Shown here: positions 20,620 through 37,760 of the stretch, in pieces
Position numbering within the stretch: the stretch's first letter is position 1
Layout of the letters: every line of letters starts with the position of its first letter
Source of the DNA: Nitrospira sp.
GTDB lineage: Bacteria; Nitrospirota; Nitrospiria; Nitrospirales; Nitrospiraceae
Direction: 5' to 3'
Assembly: GCA_029865345.1 (NCBI GenBank)
Contig: JAOUHD010000003.1
Coordinates: 1 to 60,034 of the forward strand
DNA: 60,034 bases
Program-made: the position numbers and the translations under genes
The notes under the pieces: model-generated
What the model was told of the DNA's origin: nothing
The model's database searches: none
The model's input: the letters and a program-made list of their open reading frames with translations, nothing else

Positions 20620-20764
20620 TACTTCACCTATATCGGCCTCACCAGTCGTGGAATCGGAGTGTGTTTAAGATCTCAGGTTGTGTTCTGAGAAATTGTTCAG
20701 TGGAGAGAAAAGAGAGCAACGGGTAAGTCAGGAACTAGGTGGTCTATCACAAGGAGGCAGTCCA

Positions 20765-21565
20765 ATGAAGAGTGCGTTATCAATAATGTTTGGTGTGGCA
20801 GCCGTCGCGATGGTCGCGGCGCCTCTCACCTCGTATGCGGGCGGAACGATCAGCGGGAAGGTGACCTATGCCGGGAAGGCGGAGACTAAGGAATTTCTCT
20901 TTTCAAAGTTCCCCAATCCAAAGTTCTGTCCCAAGATTGCTGAGAAGGATAAGAGCAAGGCGGATGGCGACAAGCGGTTCTTGAAGCAGATCGAAGTCGC
21001 CAAGGATGGTGGCCTCAAAGGTGCAGTTGTTGCGGTTGCGGATATCGAGGATAAGGCGTGGATGGATGGGTATGCCGGGACGGAAGTTGTGGCAGAACTC
21101 TGTGACTTCCAGCCGTTCAGCGGGATCGTTGTTAATACTCGGCCCTTCAAGGTCGAAAACACCGATGCAGATGCCGATGATCCTAAGTCGGTGGCCGGTG
21201 TGCTCCACAACCCACACAGTTTCACGGTGAAGGGTGTCTCCTCGGCAACCGGTTTCAACATTGGTCTTGCGAAGAAGGGTGACAAGCTGGACAAGCCGGT
21301 GACCTTCCGTGGTGGTGCAGAGAAGGACGGATACTATCGGTTACAATGCGACCAGCATGAGTTTATGCAGGGGTTCTTCCTGCCAGTGTCGAATCCACAT
21401 TTTGCGGTCGTGAAGGACGATGGTTCGTTTGAGCTCAAGGACGTTCCTGCTGGGAAGCATAAGGTCATTGCCTGGCATCCGTTTGCTGGCAAGGCCAAGA
21501 AGATTGAGTTCGAGGTGGATGTGGCCGATGGTGGTACCGCCAACCTCAAGGCTGAAATCAAGTAA
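20765..21565 (+). CDS. Periplasmic cupredoxin-like protein with carboxypeptidase-regulatory-like domain
   Basis: A 266-residue protein from the ATG at 20765, which has an AAGGAGG site. A signal peptide ends at about SYAGG. A C-terminal segment (residues about 200-220) shows LQCDQHEFMQG, a Cys-x2-His-x2-Met arrangement like a type 1 copper site, with an upstream His in LHNPHSFTVKG. The last 50 residues (GSFELKDVPAGKHKVIAWHP) fit a carboxypeptidase-regulatory/transthyretin-like fold. A strong promoter and terminator flank this single gene, suggesting high, independent expression. It is probably a copper or electron-transfer protein; the partner is unknown. Confidence 0.75.
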   Translation: MKSALSIMFGVAAVAMVAAPLTSYAGGTISGKVTYAGKAETKEFLFSKFPNPKFCPKIAEKDKSKADGDKRFLKQIEVAKDGGLKGAVVAVADIEDKAWMDGYAGTEVVAELCDFQPFSGIVVNTRPFKVENTDADADDPKSVAGVLHNPHSFTVKGVSSATGFNIGLAKKGDKLDKPVTFRGGAEKDGYYRLQCDQHEFMQGFFLPVSNPHFAVVKDDGSFELKDVPAGKHKVIAWHPFAGKAKKIEFEVDVADGGTANLKAEIK

Positions 21566-23554: not shown

Positions 23555-23626
23555 AAAGCATGCGTGGTATCGAACGCGAGAGAGTTCGCGTAGGTGTGAG
23601 AAACGAGGAAGTAGGGGCAGGGTTTG

Positions 23627-24343
23627 ATGCTGGATTGGTTACGAGAACCAGGCTTCTTTGGAACGTATGCGACGGCGGGTGCGGACCTCAGTCAGCTGAT
23701 GGCAACGCTCTTCACCGGGCTGTTCATCATGGGATGGTTCCAAGCTCGTCGGCGAAAGGCCGATGCACACCATTGGTTGATGTTGGGCGGCATGATTGCC
23801 ATGCTCAGCTTCTTTATCGCCTATTATCTGTTTCGTCAGCTGGGGGTCCTGGCGTTTGAGGGCAAGGAAGGGTTTGGTGGCTCGCAGTCGCTCTATGATT
23901 ATGTCTTCATCCCCGTCCTGACGCTCCATATCATTCTCGTCATGATTGGGCTGATCATGGCGGTGTATATGATCGTGTTGGGGTTTCGCTCTCAGCAGTT
24001 CCTCGACGGAGTCCGATCCTTACGGGAATCACGGCTGCTCACGACGTGGAAGAAGATCGGCCTTATCTTTGGCAGTATTGCGGTGGTGGTACTCGGTTTG
24101 TTTTTCTCGCGTGTCGTCACGGCCGGGTTTTCGATGCGGAAGCTGGAAGTGTATATGATTTTTCTTGTCATCGTGGCTTTTGTGTTTGCGATCGAGATGA
24201 CGATTCAACGGATTTGGCCCGATGGCGCGCGGCGGCATCGGGCGCTCGGCCGATTTACGATGGTCATTTACTGCGTGCTGTTCGTCACGGGCAGCTTCAC
24301 TTACACGATGTTGTACATCCTGTATCCAGGGAAGATCGGATGA
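23627..24343 (+). CDS. DUF420-like membrane protein
   Basis: A 238-residue protein with about six membrane helices. Conserved-looking polar residues inside helices (AHHWLM, LHIILVMIGLIM, HRALGRFTM) resemble the DUF420/YozB/CtaM group, some of which assist haem-copper oxidase assembly. The ATG at 23627 is preferred over the TTG three bases earlier. It opens the respiratory block and lies upstream of the bd-like oxidase genes, consistent with a role in oxidase maturation; that role is inferred. Confidence 0.6.
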   Translation: MLDWLREPGFFGTYATAGADLSQLMATLFTGLFIMGWFQARRRKADAHHWLMLGGMIAMLSFFIAYYLFRQLGVLAFEGKEGFGGSQSLYDYVFIPVLTLHIILVMIGLIMAVYMIVLGFRSQQFLDGVRSLRESRLLTTWKKIGLIFGSIAVVVLGLFFSRVVTAGFSMRKLEVYMIFLVIVAFVFAIEMTIQRIWPDGARRHRALGRFTMVIYCVLFVTGSFTYTMLYILYPGKIG

Positions 24344-25053: not shown

Positions 25054-26121
25054 ATGCTGCATCGAATGGCATTGCGCGTGATTCCTAGCTTGAGCCTGGC
25101 GGTGACGGAAGATGCCGTCCGTCGGACAAAGCGAATCGTCATGTTTGTGCCCGGACTGATCGCCTTCGGGGTGTATCGGCTGGCGAAACATCTTGTGCCG
25201 ATCACTGAGCCCTTGGTCTTGCTGGCGATCAGCAGTCTCGTCGCAATGGTCACGGCACTCTTGGCCTATCGAGTGGGGCGTGCAGCATCCTGGTCTGCCA
25301 TTGTTCGACAGGATGGTCTGAAGCTCCTTAGCTGGCTGGGCGGCTGGATCGGAGCCGTATATGGCGTTCAACTATCCCTATTGGTGCTTACTCTGTTATG
25401 GATCATGCACTACAGTTATCTCGAGCATCCCGATGGGCCGGCTATGATGGCGATCATCATCTCCTGCACATCTGTCGCGCGGGATGCGTTTGAGATTGGC
25501 CATGTACGCAAGTTATCAGTGCTGGGGCGTCCATTTTTGACATTCCCGGATGGGGAGCAGCTGCGTGTGCTGGTGCAACGCCGGGCATGGCAATTAGGAC
25601 CGTGGGCTCTCGTAGGGCTGGGTGTCGGTGCGTTGACATCGTTGCCTGGGCTGGTGATTACGGATGAGCAGGGTGCTGCCTTGGCACAACTGGTGACCGT
25701 GACGCTTCTCGGGGGAGGTCTTGCACTCTGTGCGTATTTTGGAGGACTCTATCCGGCCAGTTCGTGGCTGCACTCGCTCCGGCAGACTGTGCCAGGTGAA
25801 CTGCTGAAGTATTGGTGGTGGCCTGGAATGGCCTTTGCGTCGACCTATTATTTGGTGGCGATGGGTGTGTTGTTGTTTGTCGTCCGTCAGCCGGCTATGA
25901 CAGTGGGTGCCACGGCAGTGATGGGTGCGCTGGTTACAGCGATGATGGCGGTGTATGGGTACTATCTCGGTGATCGGCGTCACATTGAGGATGAGCAGGC
26001 GCCACAACTGTCGCCTGGCATGTTACGGTGCCCGTTTATGATGGGAATTCTTGGGAAGTCGATTGGTGCTGACGATGCAGCTGGGGGCTTCGCGCTCGGC
26101 AAGACTGGACCGAAGGGGTAG
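25054..26121 (+). CDS. Polytopic membrane protein of unknown function
   Basis: A 355-residue protein with roughly seven hydrophobic segments and no recognised domain. It has paired charged/aromatic motifs such as TSVARDAFEIGHVRKL between helices and a cytoplasmic-looking C-terminal tail. It ends five bases before the ATG of the first bd-like oxidase gene, so the two are almost certainly cotranscribed. It may be an oxidase partner subunit or assembly protein; this is inference from position only. Confidence 0.6.
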   Translation: MLHRMALRVIPSLSLAVTEDAVRRTKRIVMFVPGLIAFGVYRLAKHLVPITEPLVLLAISSLVAMVTALLAYRVGRAASWSAIVRQDGLKLLSWLGGWIGAVYGVQLSLLVLTLLWIMHYSYLEHPDGPAMMAIIISCTSVARDAFEIGHVRKLSVLGRPFLTFPDGEQLRVLVQRRAWQLGPWALVGLGVGALTSLPGLVITDEQGAALAQLVTVTLLGGGLALCAYFGGLYPASSWLHSLRQTVPGELLKYWWWPGMAFASTYYLVAMGVLLFVVRQPAMTVGATAVMGALVTAMMAVYGYYLGDRRHIEDEQAPQLSPGMLRCPFMMGILGKSIGADDAAGGFALGKTGPKG

Positions 26122-26125
26122 AGAT

Positions 26126-27991
26126 ATGGGCCGAGGATTCTTGATGATGACACGTTCCTCGATTGCTGTTGCGATGGTTGCGATCGTCCTTGGGTTTGCG
26201 TGGAATGGACCCGATCTGTCATTCGCGGAATCATCGACGGATGTGTACTTCGGCACGGAGGGGACTCCGCAGGGACCGGCGGCTCCTGCTCCTCATGAAA
26301 CGGTCTATCCGAGAATCGGTTCGTTAGACAGTCGGTTGGTGGTGTGGTTCATCACACAGCAACATACCTATTTCGGTGGATTTGTCCTTGCGCTGCCCTT
26401 GTTTTGTGCGCTGCTCGAATTTCTTGGATTGATCACCAAAAAACCAGCCTTGGCCCTTCGCTATGATGGTTTGGCACGAGATCTCGCAAAGGTGGCAGTC
26501 TTGGCCTTGTCGGTGACCGCGCTCATCGGCAGCCTGATGCTGACGATGTTCATCACGCTGTATCCCAGTTTTATGAAGTATATGGGCGGAACCTTCAAAG
26601 GGTTCATGCCCGCCTACGCGGCTGTATTTGTGGGAGAATCGCTGCTCCTGATCGTCTATTACTACGGGTGGAATCGGATGACAGGCCGGGGCGTGAAGTG
26701 GATCCACGCCGCGATCGGGATTCTGACCAACATTGTGGGAACCGCGTTATTGATGATGGCCAATGCCTGGTCGGCCTTCATGATGTCACCAGCTGGGGTG
26801 GATGCGCAGGGGCGGTTTCTGGGAAATGCCTGGCATCTGCTGCACTCTGCCCTGTGGAACCCGCTGAACGTCCATCGTTTTCTTGCGGATATCATGTCCG
26901 GTGGAGCGGTGGTGTTGGCCTATGCCTGTTATCGGTTTTTCACCAGTAAGACGGATGAGGAGCGAGCCTATTTCGATTGGGTCGGCTATATCTTTCTGTT
27001 TGTGACAGTGTTTGCACTGATTCCCATGCCGTTTGCCGGCTACTGGCTGATGAAGTCGGTGTTCGTGTTTCGCCAGACCATGGGTGTCACTATGATGGGT
27101 GGCTTGCTCACCTGGCTGTTTGTGGTTCAGGCACTCTTGATCGGCGTCCTGTTTTTGGGGATTAACTACTATCTATGGCAGAGCATGGGGCGGATCAAAG
27201 GTGGTGAGCGCTATCAGCCCTATTATCAATTCCTATTGGGGGTGCTGATGCTGGCGCTCTTCGTCTGGCTGACGCCTCACACGCTGCTCACGTCTGCCAG
27301 TGAAGTCAAGGCGATGGGCGGTGCTCAGCATCCCGTGATTGGCAACTATGGAGTGATGTCGGCCAAGAACGGAGCAGTGAATATCCTGATTCTCGTCACG
27401 GCGTTGAGCTTTTTGTACTATCGTCGGGCGAATCGCACGATGACCATTTCCTGGGTCAAGACCGGGAATACGCTCCTCACGGTGTTGTACGTGGTCGGGG
27501 CGCTCAATATCATCTGGCTGTCGATCTACGGGTTTTACTTGCCTGCGAAGGTTCGCGTCGGCCTGTCCGCTCCCCAGGCTTTCACGACGTTCACAGTCAT
27601 CGTGCTCGGTGTGGTGATGAACCGGCTCATGCTTCGAGGCGCGGTGGTGCACGGCCCGATTCAGTGGGGGAAAATTCCGCTGCGTGGCATGGTGGGATTG
27701 TTTGGGTTGGCGGCGTCCTTCAGTTGGGTGATGGGCTTGATGGGGTATATTCGTTCATCGGGGCGACTGTCCTGGCATGTGAGTGAGTTGATGGCGGATG
27801 TCTCACCCTGGGCCTTTACCCCGGACCTTCAATACGCCACAAAAATGGTGACGCTGAACATGGTGGTCTTCTGGGCCGCTGTACTTGTCTTGTTCTGGAT
27901 GTGTGAACGAGGGCAGCGGCCAGTGATGGGTGAGGAATTTGAGGAGGAGCAGGTGCCTTTGTTGTCACCGGTTCCCTCGCAGGAAACATAG
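26126..27991 (+). CDS. Cytochrome bd-like oxidase subunit I (copy 1)
   Basis: A 621-residue protein from the ATG at 26126. An N-terminal hydrophobic export segment is followed by about 14 membrane helices. It aligns along its length with the gene at 31557. Shared blocks include QQH-x-YxG in the first helix (equivalent to the CydA low-spin haem region), WHxxHxALWNPLNxHR, and a late WHVxExMxDxSPWAFT. The canonical CydA GRQPW motif is absent and this last block sits where it would be expected. This type is reported from Nitrospira as a bd-like terminal oxidase. No CydB gene is adjacent. The electron donor and true activity are unproven. Confidence 0.8.
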   Translation: MGRGFLMMTRSSIAVAMVAIVLGFAWNGPDLSFAESSTDVYFGTEGTPQGPAAPAPHETVYPRIGSLDSRLVVWFITQQHTYFGGFVLALPLFCALLEFLGLITKKPALALRYDGLARDLAKVAVLALSVTALIGSLMLTMFITLYPSFMKYMGGTFKGFMPAYAAVFVGESLLLIVYYYGWNRMTGRGVKWIHAAIGILTNIVGTALLMMANAWSAFMMSPAGVDAQGRFLGNAWHLLHSALWNPLNVHRFLADIMSGGAVVLAYACYRFFTSKTDEERAYFDWVGYIFLFVTVFALIPMPFAGYWLMKSVFVFRQTMGVTMMGGLLTWLFVVQALLIGVLFLGINYYLWQSMGRIKGGERYQPYYQFLLGVLMLALFVWLTPHTLLTSASEVKAMGGAQHPVIGNYGVMSAKNGAVNILILVTALSFLYYRRANRTMTISWVKTGNTLLTVLYVVGALNIIWLSIYGFYLPAKVRVGLSAPQAFTTFTVIVLGVVMNRLMLRGAVVHGPIQWGKIPLRGMVGLFGLAASFSWVMGLMGYIRSSGRLSWHVSELMADVSPWAFTPDLQYATKMVTLNMVVFWAAVLVLFWMCERGQRPVMGEEFEEEQVPLLSPVPSQET

Positions 27992-28007
27992 AAAGGGAAG
28001 GGAGTCT

Positions 28008-28661
28008 ATGGAGCGCCGTGGGTCGAAGTGTGCAACCGTTGTTCTCAGTCTCCTAATGGGCGTGTTGATGTGGCAGGTTCCTGGCGGTGCCCACGGGCAG
28101 GTTCTGGTACTGGAAGATTTCCAGGCAAAGGAAGCGGACGGGTTCCCTTCTCTGTGGGATCACGAAAATCAACGGAGTCAATCGAAAGGCCGTGATGCCT
28201 ATAAGGTGCAATCGGAGAGCGGCGTGAACTTTCTGTCGGCCAAAGATGCAGGGCAGCGAATTAAGAAAAAGAAAATAGATTGGGATCCCAAGGCCTATCC
28301 AATTTTGACCTGGCGGTGGCGTCTCAATAAGGCAGCGACTGGAACTGAGCCGCTGGCCGCAGTGTATGCGTCACTCGATACGGATCTTCTCTTTATCCCG
28401 GTGTTCACGAAATATGTGTGGAGCGAGTCGAAACCGGATGGCACCGTGACGGAAGGGGGCATGTTTAGTGGCTCCGAGATCGTTATCCAGACTGGGACGA
28501 AGGAGATCGGGCAATGGTTTGAGGAGCGGGTGAATGTCTACGAGGATTTCAAACGGATTCATAAACATGAGCCGGCGGAGAAGGCCTGGGGAATCTCCAT
28601 CATCGCGGCGCCTGGGGTTGAAATCGATTTTGGCCCGTTGATTGCCGCTCCGGCTAAGTAG
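28008..28661 (+). CDS. DUF3047-type periplasmic protein
   Basis: A 217-residue protein from the ATG at 28008, which has a GGGAAGGGAG site. A signal peptide ends at about GAHGQ. The core has VLEDFQ, YPILTWRWRLNKA and IIAAPGVEIDFGPL segments characteristic of DUF3047 proteins, which adopt a carbohydrate-binding-like beta-sandwich. It lies 16 bases after the bd-like gene, in the same apparent operon. The function is unknown. Confidence 0.7.
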   Translation: MERRGSKCATVVLSLLMGVLMWQVPGGAHGQVLVLEDFQAKEADGFPSLWDHENQRSQSKGRDAYKVQSESGVNFLSAKDAGQRIKKKKIDWDPKAYPILTWRWRLNKAATGTEPLAAVYASLDTDLLFIPVFTKYVWSESKPDGTVTEGGMFSGSEIVIQTGTKEIGQWFEERVNVYEDFKRIHKHEPAEKAWGISIIAAPGVEIDFGPLIAAPAK

Positions 28662-28695
28662 CGGTCTGCCTCTCGGTCTATGAAGGACCAGCGTA

Positions 28696-29058
28696 ATGGC
28701 GACAAGCAAGGTGTTTGATATTGCGCTCGGGATAGTCGTGATGGGTACCGTCGGGACTCTGATCGGTATGACCATGGGTGGTGGGCTGATGCCAGTCGCC
28801 ATTGCGATCGGGATTGTTCTTGGTGTGGTGATCGGCTTTCTGGGTGGGCGTAGATTTCTCATCAGTATCCTGGTCGGGACTGTGTTGGGTGGTGTTTTAG
28901 CCTGGGTGATGGCTGATGTCGAGCGGATCTGGGTTGGCGCCGGAGCAGGAGCTGCCATGGGTGGGTTTCTCGGTGTCCAGATTTCAATGTTGCTCGACAT
29001 GCGTGCTGCGAAGAAGGCGGCGTCTGAACAAGCGGAGACGTCCCCGTCCTATCGGTAG
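28696..29058 (+). CDS. Small Gly-rich membrane protein
   Basis: A 120-residue protein with four hydrophobic segments rich in Gly/Val/Ile (residues about 8-25, 28-46, 54-72 and 80-100) and a charged C-terminus. Glycine spacing suggests tightly packed helices. No family was recognised. It is in the same run of plus-strand genes as the bd-like oxidase and the SUMF1-like proteins. Confidence 0.55.
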   Translation: MATSKVFDIALGIVVMGTVGTLIGMTMGGGLMPVAIAIGIVLGVVIGFLGGRRFLISILVGTVLGGVLAWVMADVERIWVGAGAGAAMGGFLGVQISMLLDMRAAKKAASEQAETSPSYR

Positions 29059-29081
29059 GTACTTTCGTTAAAGAGGTGCTC

Positions 29082-29999
29082 GTGGAAAACAAGGGTGTCT
29101 TAGTCGGGTCCATCGTCTTTGTGTTTACATCGTTCTTTCTCATGATTGGTCTGCTGGCCTATGAGTCCTATAAGGCAAAGCAGATGAAACAGCTCGCGGC
29201 ATCAGTGAAGTCAGAAGCTCGACCGACGGCGAGCAGTCTACCTTCTCAGGATTTCTCGATGTATAAGACGAAAGTAGGAGATGAGGGCCGGGAGATGGTT
29301 CAGATCCCGGAAGGTCCGTTTACGATGGGGAGTCATGATGGTGATCCGGACGAGGTGCCAGAGCATCAGGTCTACCTGAAGGGATTCTACCTCGACCGAA
29401 AAGAAGTCACACAAGAGGAGTATACGCGGTTCGCGAAGATGACCAAGCGAGCGATGCCGAGAATCGAGGTGTTCGACGATGATCAGTCAAAGATCTTGAA
29501 GCCGGAGTTTGCAGCGATGAGTGTCTCGTGGGACGAAGCGGTCGCCTACTGCAAGTGGGCCGGCAAGCGATTGCCCACGGAAGCTGAGTGGGAAAAGGCT
29601 GGGCGTGGCGAGAGCAAACGAAAATATCCGTGGGGGGAGAAGTTTGTCACGACTGCTGCCAATGTCGACGGCAGCGAGGACGGATATAAATACATCGCTC
29701 CGCCTGGGTCGTTCGACGGGGGACGAAGCCCCTACGGCCTCTATGACATGACAGGCAATGTCGCTGAATGGGTCGAGGACTCCTATGACGAACACTACTA
29801 CAAGAGGTCACCATTTAGAGATCCTAAGGGACCGGAGAATGCTGATCTCAAAGTTGTGCGCGGCGGCTCATGGCGAGAAACGGAACATAATGCAAGACTG
29901 TCAAAGCGGTTTACCGCGAAACATTGGCGGACGGATGTAACGATTGGTATTCGCTGTGCGAGCGATCTTGATCAAGCAGGAGGGGCTTCTGAGTCTTAG
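29082..29999 (+). CDS. Formylglycine-generating-enzyme-like (SUMF1) membrane-anchored protein, copy 1
   Basis: A 305-residue protein from the GTG at 29082, which has an AGAGG site; a GTG at 29076 is also in frame. One N-terminal membrane helix is followed by the FGE-sulfatase domain: VQIPEGPFTMGS, DEVPEHQVYLKGFYLDRKEV, VSWDEAVAYCKWAGKRLPTE, LYDMTGNVAEWV and VRGGSW. The paired catalytic cysteines of true FGE were not found near the C-terminus, so a structural or binding role is more likely than sulfatase activation. It is followed six bases later by a paralogue. Confidence 0.85.
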   Translation: MENKGVLVGSIVFVFTSFFLMIGLLAYESYKAKQMKQLAASVKSEARPTASSLPSQDFSMYKTKVGDEGREMVQIPEGPFTMGSHDGDPDEVPEHQVYLKGFYLDRKEVTQEEYTRFAKMTKRAMPRIEVFDDDQSKILKPEFAAMSVSWDEAVAYCKWAGKRLPTEAEWEKAGRGESKRKYPWGEKFVTTAANVDGSEDGYKYIAPPGSFDGGRSPYGLYDMTGNVAEWVEDSYDEHYYKRSPFRDPKGPENADLKVVRGGSWRETEHNARLSKRFTAKHWRTDVTIGIRCASDLDQAGGASES

Positions 30000-30005
30000 T
30001 CCGAT

Positions 30006-30953
30006 ATGCTCGAATCAAAATTTAAATTCGTCTTTCTACTCGTGGTGCTGGCTTGTGCCGCCATGCCAATCATCGCCATTATGCGTGGTACGATTTCGAC
30101 TCCGTATGAAGCGCCGATGCCTGGAGCCAGTGCTGATGTTGAGCCGACACCCGAGAATGCTCCCGGCGAGGAGCCTATTGCGGATGAGATGGTGACGATT
30201 CCGGCGGGGCCGTTCGTTCGTGGCACCGAGAGCGGGGGGTTCGATGAGGGGCCACAGCGAACCATCCACTTGGATGCGTTTTCTATTGATCGGTACGAAG
30301 TGACGAATCATCACTATCAGCAGTTCATCTCGGCGACCGGCCATCGCAAGCCAGGGTTGCCTGCGCGTTACGCCAAGAGCGGGGGAAGGGTGAGGGGAAC
30401 CAATCAGCCGGTCGTCTACGTCTCGTGGGATGATGCCATGGAGTATTGCCGCTGGAAAGGGAAGCGACTTCCGACGGAAGCAGAATGGGAAAAGGCGATG
30501 CGAGGTGGAGACGGAAGGCTCTGGCCATGGGGGACCAAAGAGCAGGCCAGTGGTGCTAATTGGGCCAGGGTGCAGGATGGGTATGAGGTATCTGCGCCTG
30601 TGGGGAGCTTTCAGTCTGATACGAGTCCCTATGGTGTGATGGATGGAGCGGGGAACGCCATTGAGTGGGTGGACGATTGGTATGATGAGACATACTACAA
30701 ACGTTCGCCAGAACAGAACCCACCGAGTCCTGAGTATGGCACCTATCGGGTGCTTCGCGGCGGAGGTTATACGACGACCGGAGGTGATGTTCGAATTACC
30801 AGTCGAAGCAAGATGATGCCAGATTTCAGAGATGAAACGATCGGATTTCGCTGCGCGATTTCGAAGGCGGGAATGAGAGAAGAAGAAAAGAAAAATCCGG
30901 ATGAAGTTACAGAAAATCAAAGTGGTAGAGGATCAAAAACACGGCCAAAATGA
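30006..30953 (+). CDS. Formylglycine-generating-enzyme-like (SUMF1) membrane-anchored protein, copy 2
   Basis: A 315-residue paralogue of the preceding gene: one N-terminal helix (FVFLLVVLACAAMPIIAI), an acidic/Pro linker, and the same domain order (VTIPAGPFVRGTE, YVSWDDAMEYCRWKGKRLPTE, VMDGAGNAIEWV, LRGGGY). The C-terminal tail is Lys/Glu-rich. Tandem duplication beside a bd-like oxidase gene is notable. The last 47 bases overlap the 3' end of a small minus-strand gene. Confidence 0.85.
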   Translation: MLESKFKFVFLLVVLACAAMPIIAIMRGTISTPYEAPMPGASADVEPTPENAPGEEPIADEMVTIPAGPFVRGTESGGFDEGPQRTIHLDAFSIDRYEVTNHHYQQFISATGHRKPGLPARYAKSGGRVRGTNQPVVYVSWDDAMEYCRWKGKRLPTEAEWEKAMRGGDGRLWPWGTKEQASGANWARVQDGYEVSAPVGSFQSDTSPYGVMDGAGNAIEWVDDWYDETYYKRSPEQNPPSPEYGTYRVLRGGGYTTTGGDVRITSRSKMMPDFRDETIGFRCAISKAGMREEEKKNPDEVTENQSGRGSKTRPK

Positions 30954-31011
30954 TATTGACAACCATTCCGACCAAAACTATAATGTCAAACACTTTTGAG
31001 TTTTTTGCCAC
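30907..31011 (-). CDS. Small single-span membrane protein, convergent to SUMF1 copy 2
   Basis: A GTG at 31011 with an AGGAG site five bases upstream gives a 34-residue protein (MAKNSKVFDIIVLVGMVV..., one membrane helix of about 22 residues). An ATG at 31032 (41 residues) or a TTG at 31095 (62 residues) are longer alternatives in the same frame. It overlaps the end of the SUMF1-like gene in antisense. It resembles small accessory subunits of respiratory complexes by size only. Confidence 0.45.
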   Translation of the reverse strand: MAKNSKVFDIIVLVGMVVNIILAVFLILYHFDFL

Positions 31012-31143
31012 GGTTTCTCCTGTTTTCTGCATGGAAGCGACGAAATTTTGATAACACAGGGTCTTGTACCTGTCAAGTAATGCGGAATGCGCCAATTCTG
31101 ATTTTCTATCAAAAAAACTATCTTAATCGGGAGTACGGTAACA

Positions 31144-31266
31144 ATGGCAACGGCAGCCCCTGACAGCGAAATTAAAGTAAAAATCGGGAAGATGATTTTC
31201 TACATCACCTGTGCTGTTGGACTATGGTTTTTCTATTGGTTTGCCGGTATCCAGTGCCCCTGTTGA
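31144..31266 (+). CDS. 40-aa single-span membrane protein ending in CPC
   Basis: The ATG at 31144 opens a 40-codon frame. The product begins MATAAPDSEIKVKIGK, has one hydrophobic helix (MIFYITCAVGLWFFYWFAGI) and ends in QCPC. A GGGAG-like site lies upstream. It precedes a second tiny membrane protein and the second bd-like oxidase gene in the same orientation. By analogy with CydX or CcoQ it could be a small oxidase subunit; the C-terminal Cys-Pro-Cys could bind metal. No homologue was identified. Confidence 0.55.
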   Translation: MATAAPDSEIKVKIGKMIFYITCAVGLWFFYWFAGIQCPC

Positions 31267-31348
31267 GTTGAAGGTCTTGTGTAGTTGCCAGGGGGTGGCG
31301 GTACAGTTTAATCAACGGCTGGACTTGGTGGCAGAGGAGAAGAAAGAA

Positions 31349-31480
31349 ATGAGTGCGCTGAATAATCCTGTTGTCGCAGTGATTGTCTCTCTTATTATTT
31401 CGGTTGGTTACTTTGTTTTTGTCGATCACTACCTTATGGACATGCAGGGGTTGGATTTCTGGTACCTCTTCCGGAACTAA
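31349..31480 (+). CDS. 43-aa single-span membrane protein upstream of bd-like oxidase
   Basis: The ATG at 31349 has a GAGGAGAAG site six bases upstream. The 43-residue product has one membrane helix (VVAVIVSLIISVGYFVFV) followed by a short aromatic/charged tail (DHYLMDMQGLDFWYLFRN). It lies 76 bases before the bd-like oxidase start. Good ribosome site, compact gene spacing and a sensible membrane topology support coding. It is a candidate small subunit of the oxidase. Confidence 0.6.
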   Translation: MSALNNPVVAVIVSLIISVGYFVFVDHYLMDMQGLDFWYLFRN

Positions 31481-31556
31481 ACCTCTACATGAGGGTGTGG
31501 TCGGGCATTATCAGTAATTTGTGAATCTTAACGTAAGAGTATCAAGGAGGTATTCC

Positions 31557-33473
31557 ATGGGCCTTTTAGCCGGCAAGCGCGTCTTTTCGATTATGGCGCT
31601 CTGCATGATGGTTGGCCTCCTTCTGCTTCCGATCGTCGTAGCTTTACCTTCACTGGCAATCGGTGAAGAGGCTCCTGCTGGCGATGCGGCTAAGAAGGAT
31701 GGGGATAAGGTTGAAAAGGGTCGAGATGTCTATTACAAAACCGAGGGCATTGTCGTCGGTGCTCCCGCCCCTAAGACGGTGGATGGTCCCAGGGACTACC
31801 CACGATACAACTTTGAAAGTCGTGTATTGCTCTGGTTTGCCAATCAGCAGCATCTTTATTATGGCAGCTTTGTATTGGCCGTCCCGATCTTCTGCATGAT
31901 CATCGAGTTCATGGGTGTCGTGACGAAGGATAAGGCGCTCGCCAAGCGCTACGATCAGCTCGCCTATGACTTCATTAAGATCAGCCTAACGGCATACTCT
32001 CTCACGGCTATCCTTGGTGGTATTCTGATCTTTACCTTTCTGACCTTGTATCCGGCGTTTTTCTCTTATCTGTCAGGTATTTTCCGTCCCGTCATGCACA
32101 TCTATGCATTGATGTTTGTGGCCGAGAGCGGGACTCTTTACATCTACTATTACGGCTGGGACAAGATGAAGGAGGGGTTCCTGAAGTGGATTCATCTGAG
32201 CATGTCCGTGATCTTGAATATCATCGGCACATTGCTGATGTTCCTGGCGAACTCCTGGATTGGCTTCATGATGTCGCCGGCTGGTGTTGACGAGCAGGGG
32301 CGGTATCTTGGAAATATCTGGCACGTGATTCATACGGCCTTGTGGAACCCTCTCAATCTGCATCGAATTCTTGGCAATATGGCATTCGGCGGTGGCGTTG
32401 TTGCTGCCTATGCTGCCTATAAATTTTTGGCATCCAAGACCGATGAGGATCGGGCTCATTATGATTGGATGGGCTACATTGCCATGGCGCTCGGTGTGGC
32501 ATTCTTGATCCCGTTGCCATTTGCAGGCTATTGGCTCATGCGAGAAGTGTATGCCTATCGTCAGCAGATGGGCATCACGCTGATGGGTGGTCTGCTTGCC
32601 TGGCTGTTTATTATCCAGGCTACGATGATTGGGATTCTGTTTCTGAGCACGAACTATTATCTCTGGCAGGCAATGGGCCGCATGCGTGGTGCCGAAAAGT
32701 ACCAACGCTATATTAAGTACCTTGTTTTCATCCTTGCCTGCGGATACATGGTCTTTATTACCCCTCACACCATGGTTATGACCCCGGCTGAATTGAAGGC
32801 CATGGGAGGCCAGCAGCATCCTGTTCTTGGCAATTATGGAGTCATGTCGGCGAAAAACGGTGGGATCAATGTCATTATTACAACCACTGTATTGAGTTTC
32901 GTCTGGTACATGAGGGGAAACAAAGTTTCCACCGTATCGTGGGCGAAATTCGGTAATATCTTTATGGGTATATTTTTCGGTGCCGCCTACTTCAATATTA
33001 TTTTTCTAGCCATATATGGGTATTACATTCCAGCAAACGTTCGCGTTGGTTTGTCTGTTCCTCAGGTGGCAACAACCTTATCATGTCTCTTCTTCATGTT
33101 TGCCCTCAATAGCGTCATGATGAAGGGGGCCAAGCAGTTAGGGCCGATTGAGTGGGGCAAGATTTCTGCCCGGTCTCAGTACGCGCTTATTATGTTGGCA
33201 ACGGCCTTTACTTGGATGATGGGATTGATGGGTTATATTCGCTCGTCAGTCAGGCTCTTCTGGCACGTCAATGAGATCATGAGGGATAACTCACCATGGG
33301 CGTATACTCATACGGTGGGCTTTGCGGCCAACATGATTTCATTCAATGTTTTGTTTTTCTGGATCACGATCCTATTTGTCTTCTGGCTTGGCAGCTTGGG
33401 CGCGAAGAAGGTTCCGGTTGAATCCAAGGCTGGAATCCCTGGTGGTGTCCCGCAGCCAGCTGCCAGTCATTAA
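31557..33473 (+). CDS. Cytochrome bd-like oxidase subunit I (copy 2)
   Basis: A 638-residue protein from the ATG at 31557, which has an AAGGAGG site. It has a signal/anchor segment, a hydrophilic periplasmic stretch with AAKKDGDKVEKGRDVYYK, then about 14 membrane helices. It is a paralogue of the gene at 26126 and shares NQQHLYYGSF, WHVIHTALWNPLNLHR, TPHT and WHVNEIMRDNSPWAYT. Classical GRQPW and an adjacent CydB are both absent. It is followed by membrane cytochromes c, suggesting that this form takes electrons from cytochrome c rather than, or as well as, quinol. That is inference. Confidence 0.82.
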   Translation: MGLLAGKRVFSIMALCMMVGLLLLPIVVALPSLAIGEEAPAGDAAKKDGDKVEKGRDVYYKTEGIVVGAPAPKTVDGPRDYPRYNFESRVLLWFANQQHLYYGSFVLAVPIFCMIIEFMGVVTKDKALAKRYDQLAYDFIKISLTAYSLTAILGGILIFTFLTLYPAFFSYLSGIFRPVMHIYALMFVAESGTLYIYYYGWDKMKEGFLKWIHLSMSVILNIIGTLLMFLANSWIGFMMSPAGVDEQGRYLGNIWHVIHTALWNPLNLHRILGNMAFGGGVVAAYAAYKFLASKTDEDRAHYDWMGYIAMALGVAFLIPLPFAGYWLMREVYAYRQQMGITLMGGLLAWLFIIQATMIGILFLSTNYYLWQAMGRMRGAEKYQRYIKYLVFILACGYMVFITPHTMVMTPAELKAMGGQQHPVLGNYGVMSAKNGGINVIITTTVLSFVWYMRGNKVSTVSWAKFGNIFMGIFFGAAYFNIIFLAIYGYYIPANVRVGLSVPQVATTLSCLFFMFALNSVMMKGAKQLGPIEWGKISARSQYALIMLATAFTWMMGLMGYIRSSVRLFWHVNEIMRDNSPWAYTHTVGFAANMISFNVLFFWITILFVFWLGSLGAKKVPVESKAGIPGGVPQPAASH

Positions 33474-33543: not shown

Positions 33544-34848
33544 TTGAGTAACATGATTGCAGAGGCACTCTCTATGGGCTGGATGGCTTTCGCTATCCTG
33601 GCCGGGTTATTGGTTTATTTTCAGGTATCTATAAGCGATCCAGCAGCCAAGAAGCGCGCAGTTTTCAAAACATTCATCGGTATTATTGCGACGTTTTTGC
33701 TGTTTATGGCTATCGCGAACTATGCGAACAATTTCTACGGTGAAAATAGGCTTTTGCCAGTATCACTGGTGATTATTACGGTAAGCACCTTTGTTATGGC
33801 GCTGTATTTTACCAACCTCAGTGCTCTCTTGAAGATCGGGGGGCTGATGTTCTTTGTCGCTGCGTTTCTATCCGGCTATGGAAACTGGCTTCCGCAAGTC
33901 GAGGGTGGTTTTCCACCAGTAGAAGAGAAGAAGACTTGGGATTCAATGACCCCCCAACAGTTAGCTGATGAAGGGGAGAAGATTATTTTCGGCGGTGTAG
34001 GGAAGAATAAAGAGCAAGGGGCAATAGGCAAGGGGCAATGTCCGCTTTGCCATGCATTTCATGCCGGAATGTTGGGGGAACGAGCACCAAATTTAGCAGG
34101 CCTCCCTGGGCGAGGGAAAGAGCGATTGGAGGATCCTAAGTATTCAATGGGTAATCCTTCCAAGCGTGAATATGAGCAGAAAGAGGCGTTCCCAGGATCA
34201 GGAACTGCAGAAAATGCTCAAGAATATATAGCAGAATCGCACGCATGCCCTAGCTGCTATGTTGTCGCTGGGTATGGGGTTAAGGGAACCAACGACAAGC
34301 AGAGTCCAATGCCTTCTATTCATAAACCTCCAATATCACTCAGCCTTGCAGAGCTTGCTGCAGTGGATACCTGGATGTATTTGCGCGAAGGAATAGATGC
34401 TCCGTCGTTTGAAGAGATCGTAAAGTCGTACGAGAAGTTTATTCCAGAAGCAGATCGTCCTAAGCAGGCCGATGAAAAGCCTGCTGGAGCCACATCACTG
34501 ATGGCGGATGGAACAGAGCCGATTGACCAGATTTTTGCCAAAGGACAATGCATTTCTTGTCATACGATCCCTGGCATCCCAGGAGCGGTGGGCACCATCG
34601 GGCCTAAACTGGAAGAAGGGACAACAGCTCCGCAGCGTATTAAGGATCCCACTTATAAGGGAACAGCCAAGTCACCTGCCGAATACATTATGGAGTCTAT
34701 CGTAGACCCCAGTGCCTATGTGGTGAAGCCGTTCCCAGATAACACGATGCCCAAAGTCTTTGGACAAAAGCTGAGTGCTGGCGCGTTGAAAAAAATTGTC
34801 GATTATTTGTCTCAGGTGAAAACCGGAGCGCCTCCACCAAAAATATAG
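33544..34848 (+). CDS. Membrane-anchored di-haem cytochrome c
   Basis: A 434-residue protein. The TTG at 33544 fits the GGAGG site eight bases upstream; an ATG at 33553 is too far from it. Four membrane helices occupy residues about 10-120. Two c-type haem sites follow: C166-PLC-H170 and C336-ISC-H340. A CPSCY sequence near residue 235 is not a haem site; it aligns with DPSAY in the second domain, so the two halves are an internal duplication. It probably passes electrons to or from the bd-like oxidase next door. Confidence 0.88.
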   Translation: MSNMIAEALSMGWMAFAILAGLLVYFQVSISDPAAKKRAVFKTFIGIIATFLLFMAIANYANNFYGENRLLPVSLVIITVSTFVMALYFTNLSALLKIGGLMFFVAAFLSGYGNWLPQVEGGFPPVEEKKTWDSMTPQQLADEGEKIIFGGVGKNKEQGAIGKGQCPLCHAFHAGMLGERAPNLAGLPGRGKERLEDPKYSMGNPSKREYEQKEAFPGSGTAENAQEYIAESHACPSCYVVAGYGVKGTNDKQSPMPSIHKPPISLSLAELAAVDTWMYLREGIDAPSFEEIVKSYEKFIPEADRPKQADEKPAGATSLMADGTEPIDQIFAKGQCISCHTIPGIPGAVGTIGPKLEEGTTAPQRIKDPTYKGTAKSPAEYIMESIVDPSAYVVKPFPDNTMPKVFGQKLSAGALKKIVDYLSQVKTGAPPPKI

Positions 34849-34893
34849 TAGCCTCCGAGTGTCTGTCATGCGGAGAGTAAAGGGAGTTTGCCG

Positions 34894-35931
34894 ATGAAAG
34901 CGTTGATGTCGCTCGGTGCCCTGATCGGAGTGGCTGGTCTTCTCCTTCTGGGCGGAATGGTTCTTGATGTCGTCCCTTCAACCTACATACGGTTGGTGGA
35001 AGGCTACATGCCGATTCAAATGCTGCTCGAAGTGGCATGCTATGTGATCGGATTTACAGGATTGAGCTATACGTTGAATGCCATGGGTATGGCTATTCCA
35101 CGGTTTTGGCAGGGCATCGGTTTCTGGGTATTTTTTCTGCTCTATCTGAAGTACCGTATGTACCCGCCTATCCCATTCAGCGTGCGAGCAATGTATGGCA
35201 CAGTGTCATTGGTGGCAGTTTTCATGTGGGTCTCCGCTAGTGAAGAGGACTGGCAGAAGTTTAAGCAACCCATCATGAATGTTCTTGATGCTCAGACAGG
35301 GGGGAACCGGATCTTACGGTATCTCTATCTTGTGCTCCTGCCCATCCTCATCGGCGGATTTTCATTTAATGCCATGATGCCAAAGTCAGAGGAACCAATC
35401 GAGTTGCGAACGGTTCATCCAGCACCACCTGCGAGTACTAAGGTCCACGGGAAGACCTATACGTTACAGACCTCTCAGAATCCCTATCGTGTGAATCCAG
35501 AAGGAAAATACGATCAAGAGTTTTCTAATGCCAACATTGTTGAGCAGGGTATGGGGCGTTTGATGAAGCCTAATGCCAACCCCTGGGATGATAAGAATCA
35601 GGGGTATCTAAAGTATGTGCGGGAGGGTGGTGAGATATTCTTTCAGAACTGCCATTTTTGTCATGGTGATAATTTGAATGGACGAGGACTCCACGCCTTT
35701 GCCTTCAATCCAATTCCAGCGAACTTTACCGATCCAGGAACCATCGCACAGCTGCAAGAAACCTTTATCTTTTGGCGTGTTTCGAAGGGTGGAATTGGGT
35801 TACCCAACGAAGGGTTCCCGTGGGCATCAGTTATGCCACCCTGGGAGCAACACCTGACGGTGGATGAAATTTGGAAAGTTGTTTTGTTTGAATATTGGCA
35901 CACCGGCTACTATCCGCGGACCTGGGATTAG
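34894..35931 (+). CDS. Membrane-bound mono-haem cytochrome c
   Basis: A 345-residue protein from the ATG at 34894 (GGGAG site upstream; a TTG six bases earlier is less likely). Five membrane helices lie in the first 170 residues, followed by a periplasmic cytochrome domain with one haem site, C253-HFC-H257, and a likely distal Met in VMPPWEQHL. The gene spacing (45 bases after the di-haem cytochrome, 56 before the next) supports one operon. Confidence 0.88.
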   Translation: MKALMSLGALIGVAGLLLLGGMVLDVVPSTYIRLVEGYMPIQMLLEVACYVIGFTGLSYTLNAMGMAIPRFWQGIGFWVFFLLYLKYRMYPPIPFSVRAMYGTVSLVAVFMWVSASEEDWQKFKQPIMNVLDAQTGGNRILRYLYLVLLPILIGGFSFNAMMPKSEEPIELRTVHPAPPASTKVHGKTYTLQTSQNPYRVNPEGKYDQEFSNANIVEQGMGRLMKPNANPWDDKNQGYLKYVREGGEIFFQNCHFCHGDNLNGRGLHAFAFNPIPANFTDPGTIAQLQETFIFWRVSKGGIGLPNEGFPWASVMPPWEQHLTVDEIWKVVLFEYWHTGYYPRTWD

Positions 35932-35987
35932 TCGCCATATTTCTGAAGAATGCCAAACCAGACATAATGAAGATTATGAGGCCAAAC

Positions 35988-37760
35988 ATGATGGACAGTA
36001 TAACTCAGAAGGCCGGGCTCATCGCGGCTACTGCCTTCGGAGTGGTTCTAGTGTCGAGTGCAGTGTATACGTCAGTTTCTGCTCAAGGGCTTCCTGAGGG
36101 CTTTAAGAAAGGTGATCTTTCGCCTGCACCATCAGCAGAAATGATTGAAGCAGGGAAGCGAGTCTATTTCACTAAGTGCGTGTGGTGTCACGGAGTGGAT
36201 GGAGCCGGTGATGGACCTGGAGCCGACCGGCTTTGGCCACGCCCGCGGAACTTCAATCAAGGCACATTCAAAATTCGCCATACTGCAAGCGGCGAACTCC
36301 CACTCTTCGATGCTAAGAAGCCTATAGCTGGGCAGAACGATCTGTTTGAAACGGTCACGCATGGATTGCCTGGTTCTGCCATGCCACCTTGGGAAGGTAT
36401 TTTGAGCGAGGAACAGCGCCTACAAGTCCTATCTTTTGTTACGACCGAACTCGTCAAAGACCGAAAGTTTACCGATAAGCAGTCAGAAACACAGACGATT
36501 TTACAACTAGCGGAGCTTAAGCCTAAACCCGCCACTGACGAAAGTAAGAAGCGGGGTGCCGAGTTGATCGTAGAGAAAAAGTGTGTCGAATGTCATGGAA
36601 TGGAAGGGCGTGGCGATGGAAACGCCTTCAATTTAAAGGATGACTGGGGTTTCTCAATCCAACCGGCCAATTGGCATAAGTGCTGGAACTTCAGGGGGAG
36701 TCGTCAAGATCCGTACAATGTTGCCAACATCTTCCGTACTTTTTCTACGGGTGTAAATGGCACACCGATGCCATCTTTTGCGGATAACACGAGTGTTGAT
36801 GAACGGTGGGATATCGCCAACTTTGTCAGTTCGCTGTGTGAAAGAGATACACTGGGTAATCCACTGCCCATTGATCCATTAACCGATAAGCCTAAAATCA
36901 ACTTCGTCATCCCCTCAGATCTCTTTGAGGGGGAAATCCCGGCTGAGATTGAGCATGAGGCCTGGCAAAAGGCTCCAAAACGACTTGTGGCGATGGGAGG
37001 ACAGATCACCCATAAGCCAAGAAACTTTGTTAATCGAATCGATGATATCTGGGTTCGGTCGCTCTACAATGACAAATATATTGTCTATCTTCTTGAATGG
37101 GATGACCGAACGAAAAGTATAGCTGAAGGCAAGCTTCCGTGGGCCCCCACTCAGGTGAACATCGATATTAAAGAGCAGGACCCTAAGACGGGTGAAGAGG
37201 GGTCTATTGCGGCGAATCAAAATAATTACGCGGTCTACAACGACGCAATTGCCATTGAGACGGCGGTGAAGTGGAAAGAATTACCGGCTCCAATTAAGCC
37301 GCGCTATCTCTTTGGGACGAACGACCAATATCCCATGGATATAGTGAAGTGGGAAGCTGACGGCTCCCTTCGGGCATTCAAAGGTACCGGATGGGATAAG
37401 GACTTCGAGGAACGTGATAACTACGAAGAGGCCATGAAGCTCGTAAAGAGCGAATGGAAGAATGGTCGCTGGTATGTCATGATTCAACGGCCTGTAGGAA
37501 ATAAAAAAGACCAGGACTACGATGAAGACACCTTTTTTGAAGTGGGTCAATATATTCCCACTGTCTTCTTTGCATGGGATGGTCACAATGGTGATGCAGG
37601 ACGAAAGATGGCCGTGTCCGCATTTTACTACACCTTTATGAATCCACCGGTTCCTCAGGAAACGTACATCTATCCAGTTGTTATCGCTGTCGGAGTGGTA
37701 CTGCTGGAGGGTTGGGTTCTGACTCGTCGCGCAAACAGGAAAAAGGGGAAGACGCTGTAG
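35988..37760 (+). CDS. Di-haem cytochrome c fused to ethylbenzene-dehydrogenase-type haem-binding domain (NXR gamma-like)
   Basis: A 590-residue protein. The ATG at 35988 has a GAGG site six bases before it; further in-frame starts lie upstream. A signal peptide is followed by two cytochrome c domains (C64-VWC-H68 and C199-VEC-H203), then about 250 residues resembling the EB_dh haem-b-binding domain of dimethylsulfoxide-reductase-family gamma subunits (GEIPAEIEHEAWQKAP, DIWVRSLYNDKYIVYLLEWDD, WKNGRWYVMIQRP). A C-terminal membrane helix anchors it. In Nitrospira such proteins are candidate NXR gamma subunits or electron mediators. No alpha or beta subunit lies in this window. Confidence 0.85.
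   Translation: MMDSITQKAGLIAATAFGVVLVSSAVYTSVSAQGLPEGFKKGDLSPAPSAEMIEAGKRVYFTKCVWCHGVDGAGDGPGADRLWPRPRNFNQGTFKIRHTASGELPLFDAKKPIAGQNDLFETVTHGLPGSAMPPWEGILSEEQRLQVLSFVTTELVKDRKFTDKQSETQTILQLAELKPKPATDESKKRGAELIVEKKCVECHGMEGRGDGNAFNLKDDWGFSIQPANWHKCWNFRGSRQDPYNVANIFRTFSTGVNGTPMPSFADNTSVDERWDIANFVSSLCERDTLGNPLPIDPLTDKPKINFVIPSDLFEGEIPAEIEHEAWQKAPKRLVAMGGQITHKPRNFVNRIDDIWVRSLYNDKYIVYLLEWDDRTKSIAEGKLPWAPTQVNIDIKEQDPKTGEEGSIAANQNNYAVYNDAIAIETAVKWKELPAPIKPRYLFGTNDQYPMDIVKWEADGSLRAFKGTGWDKDFEERDNYEEAMKLVKSEWKNGRWYVMIQRPVGNKKDQDYDEDTFFEVGQYIPTVFFAWDGHNGDAGRKMAVSAFYYTFMNPPVPQETYIYPVVIAVGVVLLEGWVLTRRANRKKGKTL

Follow-up and report, generated by a model that had tools for sequence, protein, structure and literature searches.

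A CydA-like gene pair of Nitrospira, one copy a candidate core of a cytochrome-c-linked complex

Nitrospira bacteria carry out a large share of global nitrite oxidation. To our knowledge most of them possess no heme-copper oxidase, and the protein by which they reduce O2 is unproven. The stretch of DNA analysed here (the window, 60,034 nucleotides) belongs to a genome of 3.33 Mb, and a near-identical contig is assigned to Nitrospiraceae Hainich-H41-bin216. It holds two genes resembling CydA, the large subunit of cytochrome bd, which raises the question whether either of them may encode an oxygen reductase. The genes under discussion are listed below in window coordinates:

23624..24343, + strand: DUF420 membrane protein (PF04238), conserved in the neighbourhood
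25054..26121, + strand: polytopic protein of 355 amino acids directly before copy 1; accompanies only copy 1, in the order Nitrospirales
26126..27991, + strand: copy 1, OR-N CydA-fold protein of 621 amino acids, ATG start at 26126; orthologue of N. moscoviensis bd-like_4
27996..28661, + strand: DUF3047 protein (PF11249), after copy 1, Nitrospirales only
29076..29999, + strand: formylglycine-generating-enzyme-like protein 1 (PF03781), conserved upstream of copy 2
30006..30953, + strand: formylglycine-generating-enzyme-like protein 2 (PF03781), conserved in synteny
31144..31266, + strand: smA, 40 amino acids, single transmembrane helix, ends in CPC; candidate small subunit
31349..31480, + strand: smB, 43 amino acids, single transmembrane helix (...MDMQGLDFWYLFRN); candidate small subunit
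31557..33473, + strand: copy 2, OR-N CydA-fold protein of 638 amino acids; orthologue of N. moscoviensis bd-like_3
33544..34848, + strand: CytA, four N-terminal transmembrane helices followed by a dihaem cytochrome c
34888..35931, + strand: CytB, membrane monohaem cytochrome c
35967..37760, + strand: alt-NxrC (published as alt_NxrC_2), two haem c sites, ethylbenzene-dehydrogenase-type haem b domain, C-terminal transmembrane helix

The pair is known at family and locus level, since the same arrangement has been published and the cluster has been reported in other groups. The exact pair has been named bd-like_3 and bd-like_4 (PMC6606698, PMC12342949); two cytochromes c and alt_NxrC_2 are described as accompanying bd-like_3, and bd-like_4 as a duplicate a few genes away in all Nitrospira (PMC6606698). 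At family level, both belong to the OR-N family ("CydAA'") of the cytochrome bd superfamily (Murali et al. 2021, as cited in PMC10839748 and PMC12342949), whose oxygen reduction with a cytochrome c donor has been described as uncharacterised (PMC10839748). The same cluster is reported in Nitrospinae and anammox bacteria (PMC8026999, PMC3578206; for anammox bacteria also PMC6606698), whereas hits in our scan of a genome collection were confined to Nitrospira and close relatives. Our additions to this are smA and smB, a fixed Glu-to-Ser difference (E342S) in copy 1, a recurring gene module, and four homologues that have jointly lost the proposed active site. Neither the small proteins nor the residue differences were found in the parts of PMC6606698 consulted. 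A targeted literature search, with subscription papers mostly outside its reach, found no report of a purified or solved bd-like complex, of spectroscopy or of a mutant.

Both bd-like genes are real and conserved, and both have a CydA fold without the Q-loop. As the first-pass annotation had proposed, they are full-length reading frames, each matching Pfam PF01654 (Cyt_bd_oxida_I) above cut-off in its N-terminal half only (copy 1: 63.7 bits, residues 69-314; copy 2: 72.9 bits). Neither matches the heme-copper oxidase domain COX1 (PF00115) in Pfam, and the copies are 50% identical to each other. The frame of copy 2 is open from GTG 31521, and ATG 31557 behind AAGGAGG is the likelier start; copy-2 residue numbers (H111, E342, S575 etc.) count from GTG 31521. 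AlphaFold models reached pLDDT 82.7 and pTM 0.82 for copy 1, and pLDDT 84.6 and pTM 0.83, with about 14 transmembrane helices, for copy 2. Compared with solved structures, the copy-2 model matched ten CydA chains best (Z 31-35, about 350 residues aligned, 13-17% identity); the next folds were ACIII ActF/ActC (Z 21-23) and then PsrC (Z 14).

The active-site residues were assigned by a profile alignment of OR-N proteins against 32 canonical CydA sequences, in which residues 100-343 of copy 2 aligned with a probability of 98.6. In copy 2, H111 corresponds to H19, Y195 to E99, E202 to E107 and H281 to H186, and hence the haem ligands H19 and H186 have counterparts. The QQH and WHxxHxALWNPLNxHR stretches to which attention had been drawn earlier are indeed shared by both copies and correspond, in the alignments, to the parts of E. 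coli CydA around H19 and H186. Further assignments, S575 to E445, R578 to R448 and W581 to W451, come from a weak C-terminal profile alignment (E 0.0066) that was reproduced by a joint alignment. The stretch aligned with CydA A444-W451 reads RSSGRLSW in copy 1 and RSSVRLFW in copy 2. The GRQPW signature was thought to have given way to an SPWA-[YF]-T block. However, SPWA starts ten residues past W581 within the same loop, and the profile alignment rules it out as the substitute: the GRQPW position is [G/V]RLxW, R448 and W451 are kept, and the relevant change is the one from E445 to Ser (S575 in 28/28 copy-2 rows, its counterpart in 25/25 copy-1 rows). By eye, E342 could be conceived as a shifted E445 (IPLPFAGYWLMRE versus IPLPWIAVEAGWFVAE), for which the alignments give no support.

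The Q-loop with K252 and E257 is missing; the confident profile alignment stops at CydA residue 245, and only about residues 330-358 of the copy-2 model occupy its place. According to the model, the loop would be replaced by a short broken helix (332-355) containing E342 and M355, and the counterparts of TM7 and TM8 would be separated by four extra helices (392-533), with a periplasmic loop among them carrying H416 and H433. A published count gives 14 helices and assigns three of them to the position of the Q-loop (PMC3578206). M355, conserved at 99%, sits, by model position and not by direct alignment, at the helix start expected for M393; a ligand of M393 type for b558 is probably also retained. 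For E. coli bd-II the published ligands are H19 for haem d, E445 for b595, and both H186 and M393 for b558, with E99 at a distance of 5.1 A from haem d (PMC8585947). By this comparison the OR-N pair has kept the haem d ligand and H186 but has neither the b595 ligand nor E99, and therefore its canonical dihaem O2 site is not intact.

Copy 2 had been described as coupled to membrane cytochromes c. Two of these do follow it, and a third partner, alt-NxrC, had gone unnamed. CytA has two CxxCH motifs, 4 transmembrane segments and a cytochrome c Pfam match, and is conserved beside copy 2. CytB has homologues in other instances of the module described below, with E values down to 1e-119. alt-NxrC matches PF09459 and Cytochrom_C above cut-off and DMSO_red_II_gam partially, below cut-off; it is homologous to a gamma subunit of an NXR-type operon. 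Upstream of copy 2, smA recurs with matching length in 81/85 loci and smB in 80/85, and substitutions fall mostly on the third codon position (301/148/1104 and 712/416/1508 by codon position, respectively). smA is found there across Nitrospirales and, like smB, is diverged in other Nitrospiria families, where many operons have diverged single-helix reading frames at the two places; its tail is CPC within Nitrospirales and often contains His outside the order. Neither protein has a Pfam or NCBIfam match. Some Nitrospirales have extra copy-2-like genes (L162, L163; 74-78% identical) that lack cytochrome partners, and no frames of smA/smB type were found before these operon-less second copies. 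The pair of formylglycine-generating-enzyme-like genes (29076-30953) keeps its place ahead of copy 2 in much of the class. The polytopic protein before copy 1 has no Pfam or NCBIfam match. As a hidden CydB it was rejected, showing no profile similarity to CydB, CydA or OR-N in a weak test that fails to link even CydB with CydA; a 334-aa membrane protein before one of the paralogues on contig C22 shows no similarity to it either.

Only two bd-like genes had been noted before. By Pfam the genome encodes four CydA-superfamily proteins, the second pair lying on contig C22, and PF00115 has no match in the whole genome. The claim that CydB is missing holds for the surroundings of copy 1 and copy 2. 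The genome does encode a single CydB at the edge of contig C190 (174-1217; L005). As this gene starts at base 174, its cydA, missing from the assembly, was presumably cut off with the contig, and the gene is presumably part of a canonical CydAB distinct from the window pair. Next to its two bd-like proteins, contig C22 encodes an NxrC-like protein, cytochromes c and, to judge from the sequence, the cytochrome b of a complex III. In this it matches the N. moscoviensis locus with bd-like_1, bd-like_2, CIII_1 and alt_nxrC_1 (PMC6606698). In the literature, this other pair beside complex III is the terminal-oxidase candidate, and an NXR-related or reverse-electron role is proposed for the window pair. 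We regard the C22 paralogues as the better terminal-oxidase candidates.

An OR-N protein, a CytA-like cytochrome c, a membrane cytochrome c (CytB) and an NxrC-like gamma subunit form a recurring module, present in the window, on contig C22, in the class Nitrospiria (L149-L159) and in distant families (L203, L209; L212 without clear CytA). A window protein without Pfam match (20678-21565) has homologues (24-29%) that adjoin the module in distant Nitrospirota (L203, L209, L211, L212). Elsewhere, an OR-N gene lies about 2.5 kb from a heme-copper oxidase gene (genome G006, contig C140, L208). Almost all Nitrospirales genomes covered by the phylum search have a copy-2 orthologue (G181, G212 and G269 gave weaker matches only). 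Outside Nitrospirales, 15/15 Nitrospiria genomes carry copy 2 and no NxrB (short ferredoxin-type matches only). The operon was inspected in eleven of these 15, and 3/15 encode a full heme-copper oxidase. In one of them, G131 (96% complete), the copy-2 orthologue is the only bd-superfamily protein and neither a heme-copper oxidase nor NxrB was found; an orthologue of the DUF420 protein, 44% identical, lies near its operon.

Natural variants of the module were found in four distant Nitrospirota (G111, G174, G176, G266; L198, L199, L200, L201), whose OR-N proteins carry H111M, Y195F, H416R and S575A. The joint change at all four sites is confined to these homologues. Proteins with His at position 111 (H-type) keep H111, Y195, H416 and S575 together; exceptions occur chiefly in the P0003-like group, at H416 and S575. 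In G111, G174 and G176 the variant lies in a gene run with NxrA-like and NxrB-like genes and, where checked, TorD-like and NxrC-like genes; the alpha subunits of G174 and G176 are 42-47% identical to the C-terminal part of the window genome's NxrA, and the beta subunits 44-45% to its NxrB. G266 resembles them in layout, its alpha frame being broken or gapped. Among the loci read, no H-type module protein stands beside NxrAB; a P0003-like protein in G203 adjoins another molybdoenzyme pair of the DMSO-reductase family (L210:6891-12441; alpha 24%, beta 34% identical to NXR-type subunits). As the numbers are small and the four Met-type variants form one clade in the joint alignment, they represent one evolutionary event and not four. 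They do not mark oxidase-free genomes, as PF00115 proteins occur in 4/4 of them.

From the observed sequences, synteny and residue changes and the predicted fold, we infer a cytochrome-c-linked complex that has copy 2 as its membrane subunit and probably reduces O2, a reading to which we give about an even chance. Such a complex would comprise copy 2 as core, smA, smB, CytA, CytB and the membrane-anchored NxrC-like haem b/c subunit. High-potential electrons would reach the periplasm from nitrite via NXR in Nitrospira and from other donors in NXR-free relatives. They may enter through alt-NxrC, CytA and CytB, pass to a b558-type haem held by H281 and probably M355, and from there to a haem held by H111 beside Tyr195. 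O2 would most likely be reduced at the latter haem, by a cytochrome-c-linked reductase that has neither quinol site nor Q-loop nor CydB. Copy 1 would be a Nitrospirales-specific duplicate that shares the predicted haem sites but lacks E342. The CydA fold, the kept counterparts of H19, H186 and E107, the conserved module and the joint retention of sites in H-type proteins, with joint loss only in the four homologues beside NxrAB-type genes, speak for oxygen reduction, as do the gene content of G131, the window genome's lack of a heme-copper oxidase, and the reported expression of TO_1, taken to be this operon (see below). Against it count the published preference for the C22 pair, the canonical CydB in the genome, and the loss-of-site homologues, which show that the module is able to act without the H111 site. 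The missing E445 and E99 and the reports of the cluster in anammox bacteria weigh against it as well.

The main rival is reverse electron transport, in which electrons from nitrite via NXR, or from another periplasmic donor, would be driven by the proton-motive force into the quinone pool with no reduction of O2. It has been proposed before (PMC3578206, PMC6606698), and the anammox reports suit it. The Met-type proteins in NxrABC operons with related cytochromes point to a module role that does not need an H19-type haem, the closest folds after CydA are the quinone-linked NrfD-type ones, and E342 is invariant in copy 2 within the segment replacing the Q-loop. However, the known quinol-site features (Q-loop, GRQPW) are all gone, and nothing else in G131 from the two superfamilies is a candidate for reducing O2. 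Moreover, H111 and Y195 are strictly kept where NxrAB does not adjoin, a site that quinone chemistry alone would not need; for this reason we favour oxygen reduction and regard reverse transport as a serious but less probable possibility.

We tentatively suggest that OR-N proteins are the core of modular complexes (with cytochrome c, membrane cytochrome c, NxrC-like gamma subunit and, in Nitrospiria, two single-helix subunits) that switch electron sinks: attached to NxrAB, the module would be a conduit without O2 site; detached, it would reduce O2 with Tyr for E99 and Ser for E445, by a chemistry unlike that of known cytochrome bd or heme-copper oxidases. This is speculative.

A further proposal concerns composition only and is compatible with the other readings: copy 1 and copy 2 may be the halves of one CydAA' heterodimer, with copy 1 taking the place of CydB. 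Copy 1 lies about 5 kb upstream of copy 2 in the Nitrospirales loci that reach that far, and such an arrangement has been proposed for OR-N1/OR-N2 (PMC10839748, PMC12342949). Only eight fixed sites separate the copies, most strikingly E342S: position 342 holds Glu in all copy-2 rows (24/24) and in the P0004-like rows whose site is intact (6/6), and Ser (Ser311 of copy 1) in 25/25 copy-1 rows. Yet copy 1 retains all putative haem ligands in the alignment, the published pairing involves an NIDE0901-like protein that we place on contig C22, and copy 1, a single clade (support 100/98), was seen only in the order Nitrospirales, while the copy-2 operon occurs without it in Nitrospiria outside that order. 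On balance, such a heterodimer appears unlikely.

It appears more doubtful still that the operon is a mere membrane anchor docking soluble NXR, as proposed in PMC6606698. The homology of alt-NxrC to the NXR-type gamma subunit fits such a role, but copy 2 persists in the 15 genomes without NxrB, hence its operon is not tied to NXR and a pure anchor idea is weakened. Finally, divergent but ordinary quinol-oxidising cytochrome bd subunits, as the fold and the kept H19, H186, R448 and W451 might indicate, are already contradicted and highly improbable, given the missing Q-loop, E445 and CydB, the conserved cytochrome c partners, and a tree in which canonical CydA (31 rows, nearly all Nitrospirota; no OR-C reference, root not inferred) and OR-N proteins are separated by a branch supported at 100/100. 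The earlier suggestion of a separate class without quinol-site features is thereby supported; nesting within canonical CydA with every haem ligand aligned was not seen, E445 being absent.

What this analysis adds to a known pair is a fuller parts list of the operon and residue differences which allow direct tests of an oxidase against a complex feeding the quinone pool. E342, the sharpest separator of the copies, and the natural homologues without the proposed O2 site provide further handles for such tests.

Among known systems, the N. moscoviensis locus of bd-like_3 and bd-like_4 (alt_NxrC_2 is NITMOv2_3640) has the same gene order and content as the window, and at locus L067 copy 2 is about 92% and copy 1 about 82% identical to the window copies. 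With the OR-N family the pair shares likeness to CydA, the lack of a quinol site and of CydB, the cytochrome c context and occurrence in Nitrospirota. TO_1 of Ca. Manganitrophus, a bd-like protein with a periplasmic cytochrome b subunit, is a relative within the class, equated with the copy-2 operon by description only; strong expression of it is reported for the Mn(II)-oxidising organism (PMC9040806). ACIII ActF/ActC and PsrC (NrfD-type) have a related membrane fold (Z 14-23) at 7-9% identity, and CydX-type subunits resemble smA and smB in size and topology only. Canonical E. coli CydA has in common with the window pair the fold and the counterparts of H19, H186, E107, R448 and W451; the pair differs from it by Ser for E445, Tyr for E99, a short segment for the Q-loop, the absence of CydB and, as the model suggests, four additional transmembrane helices.
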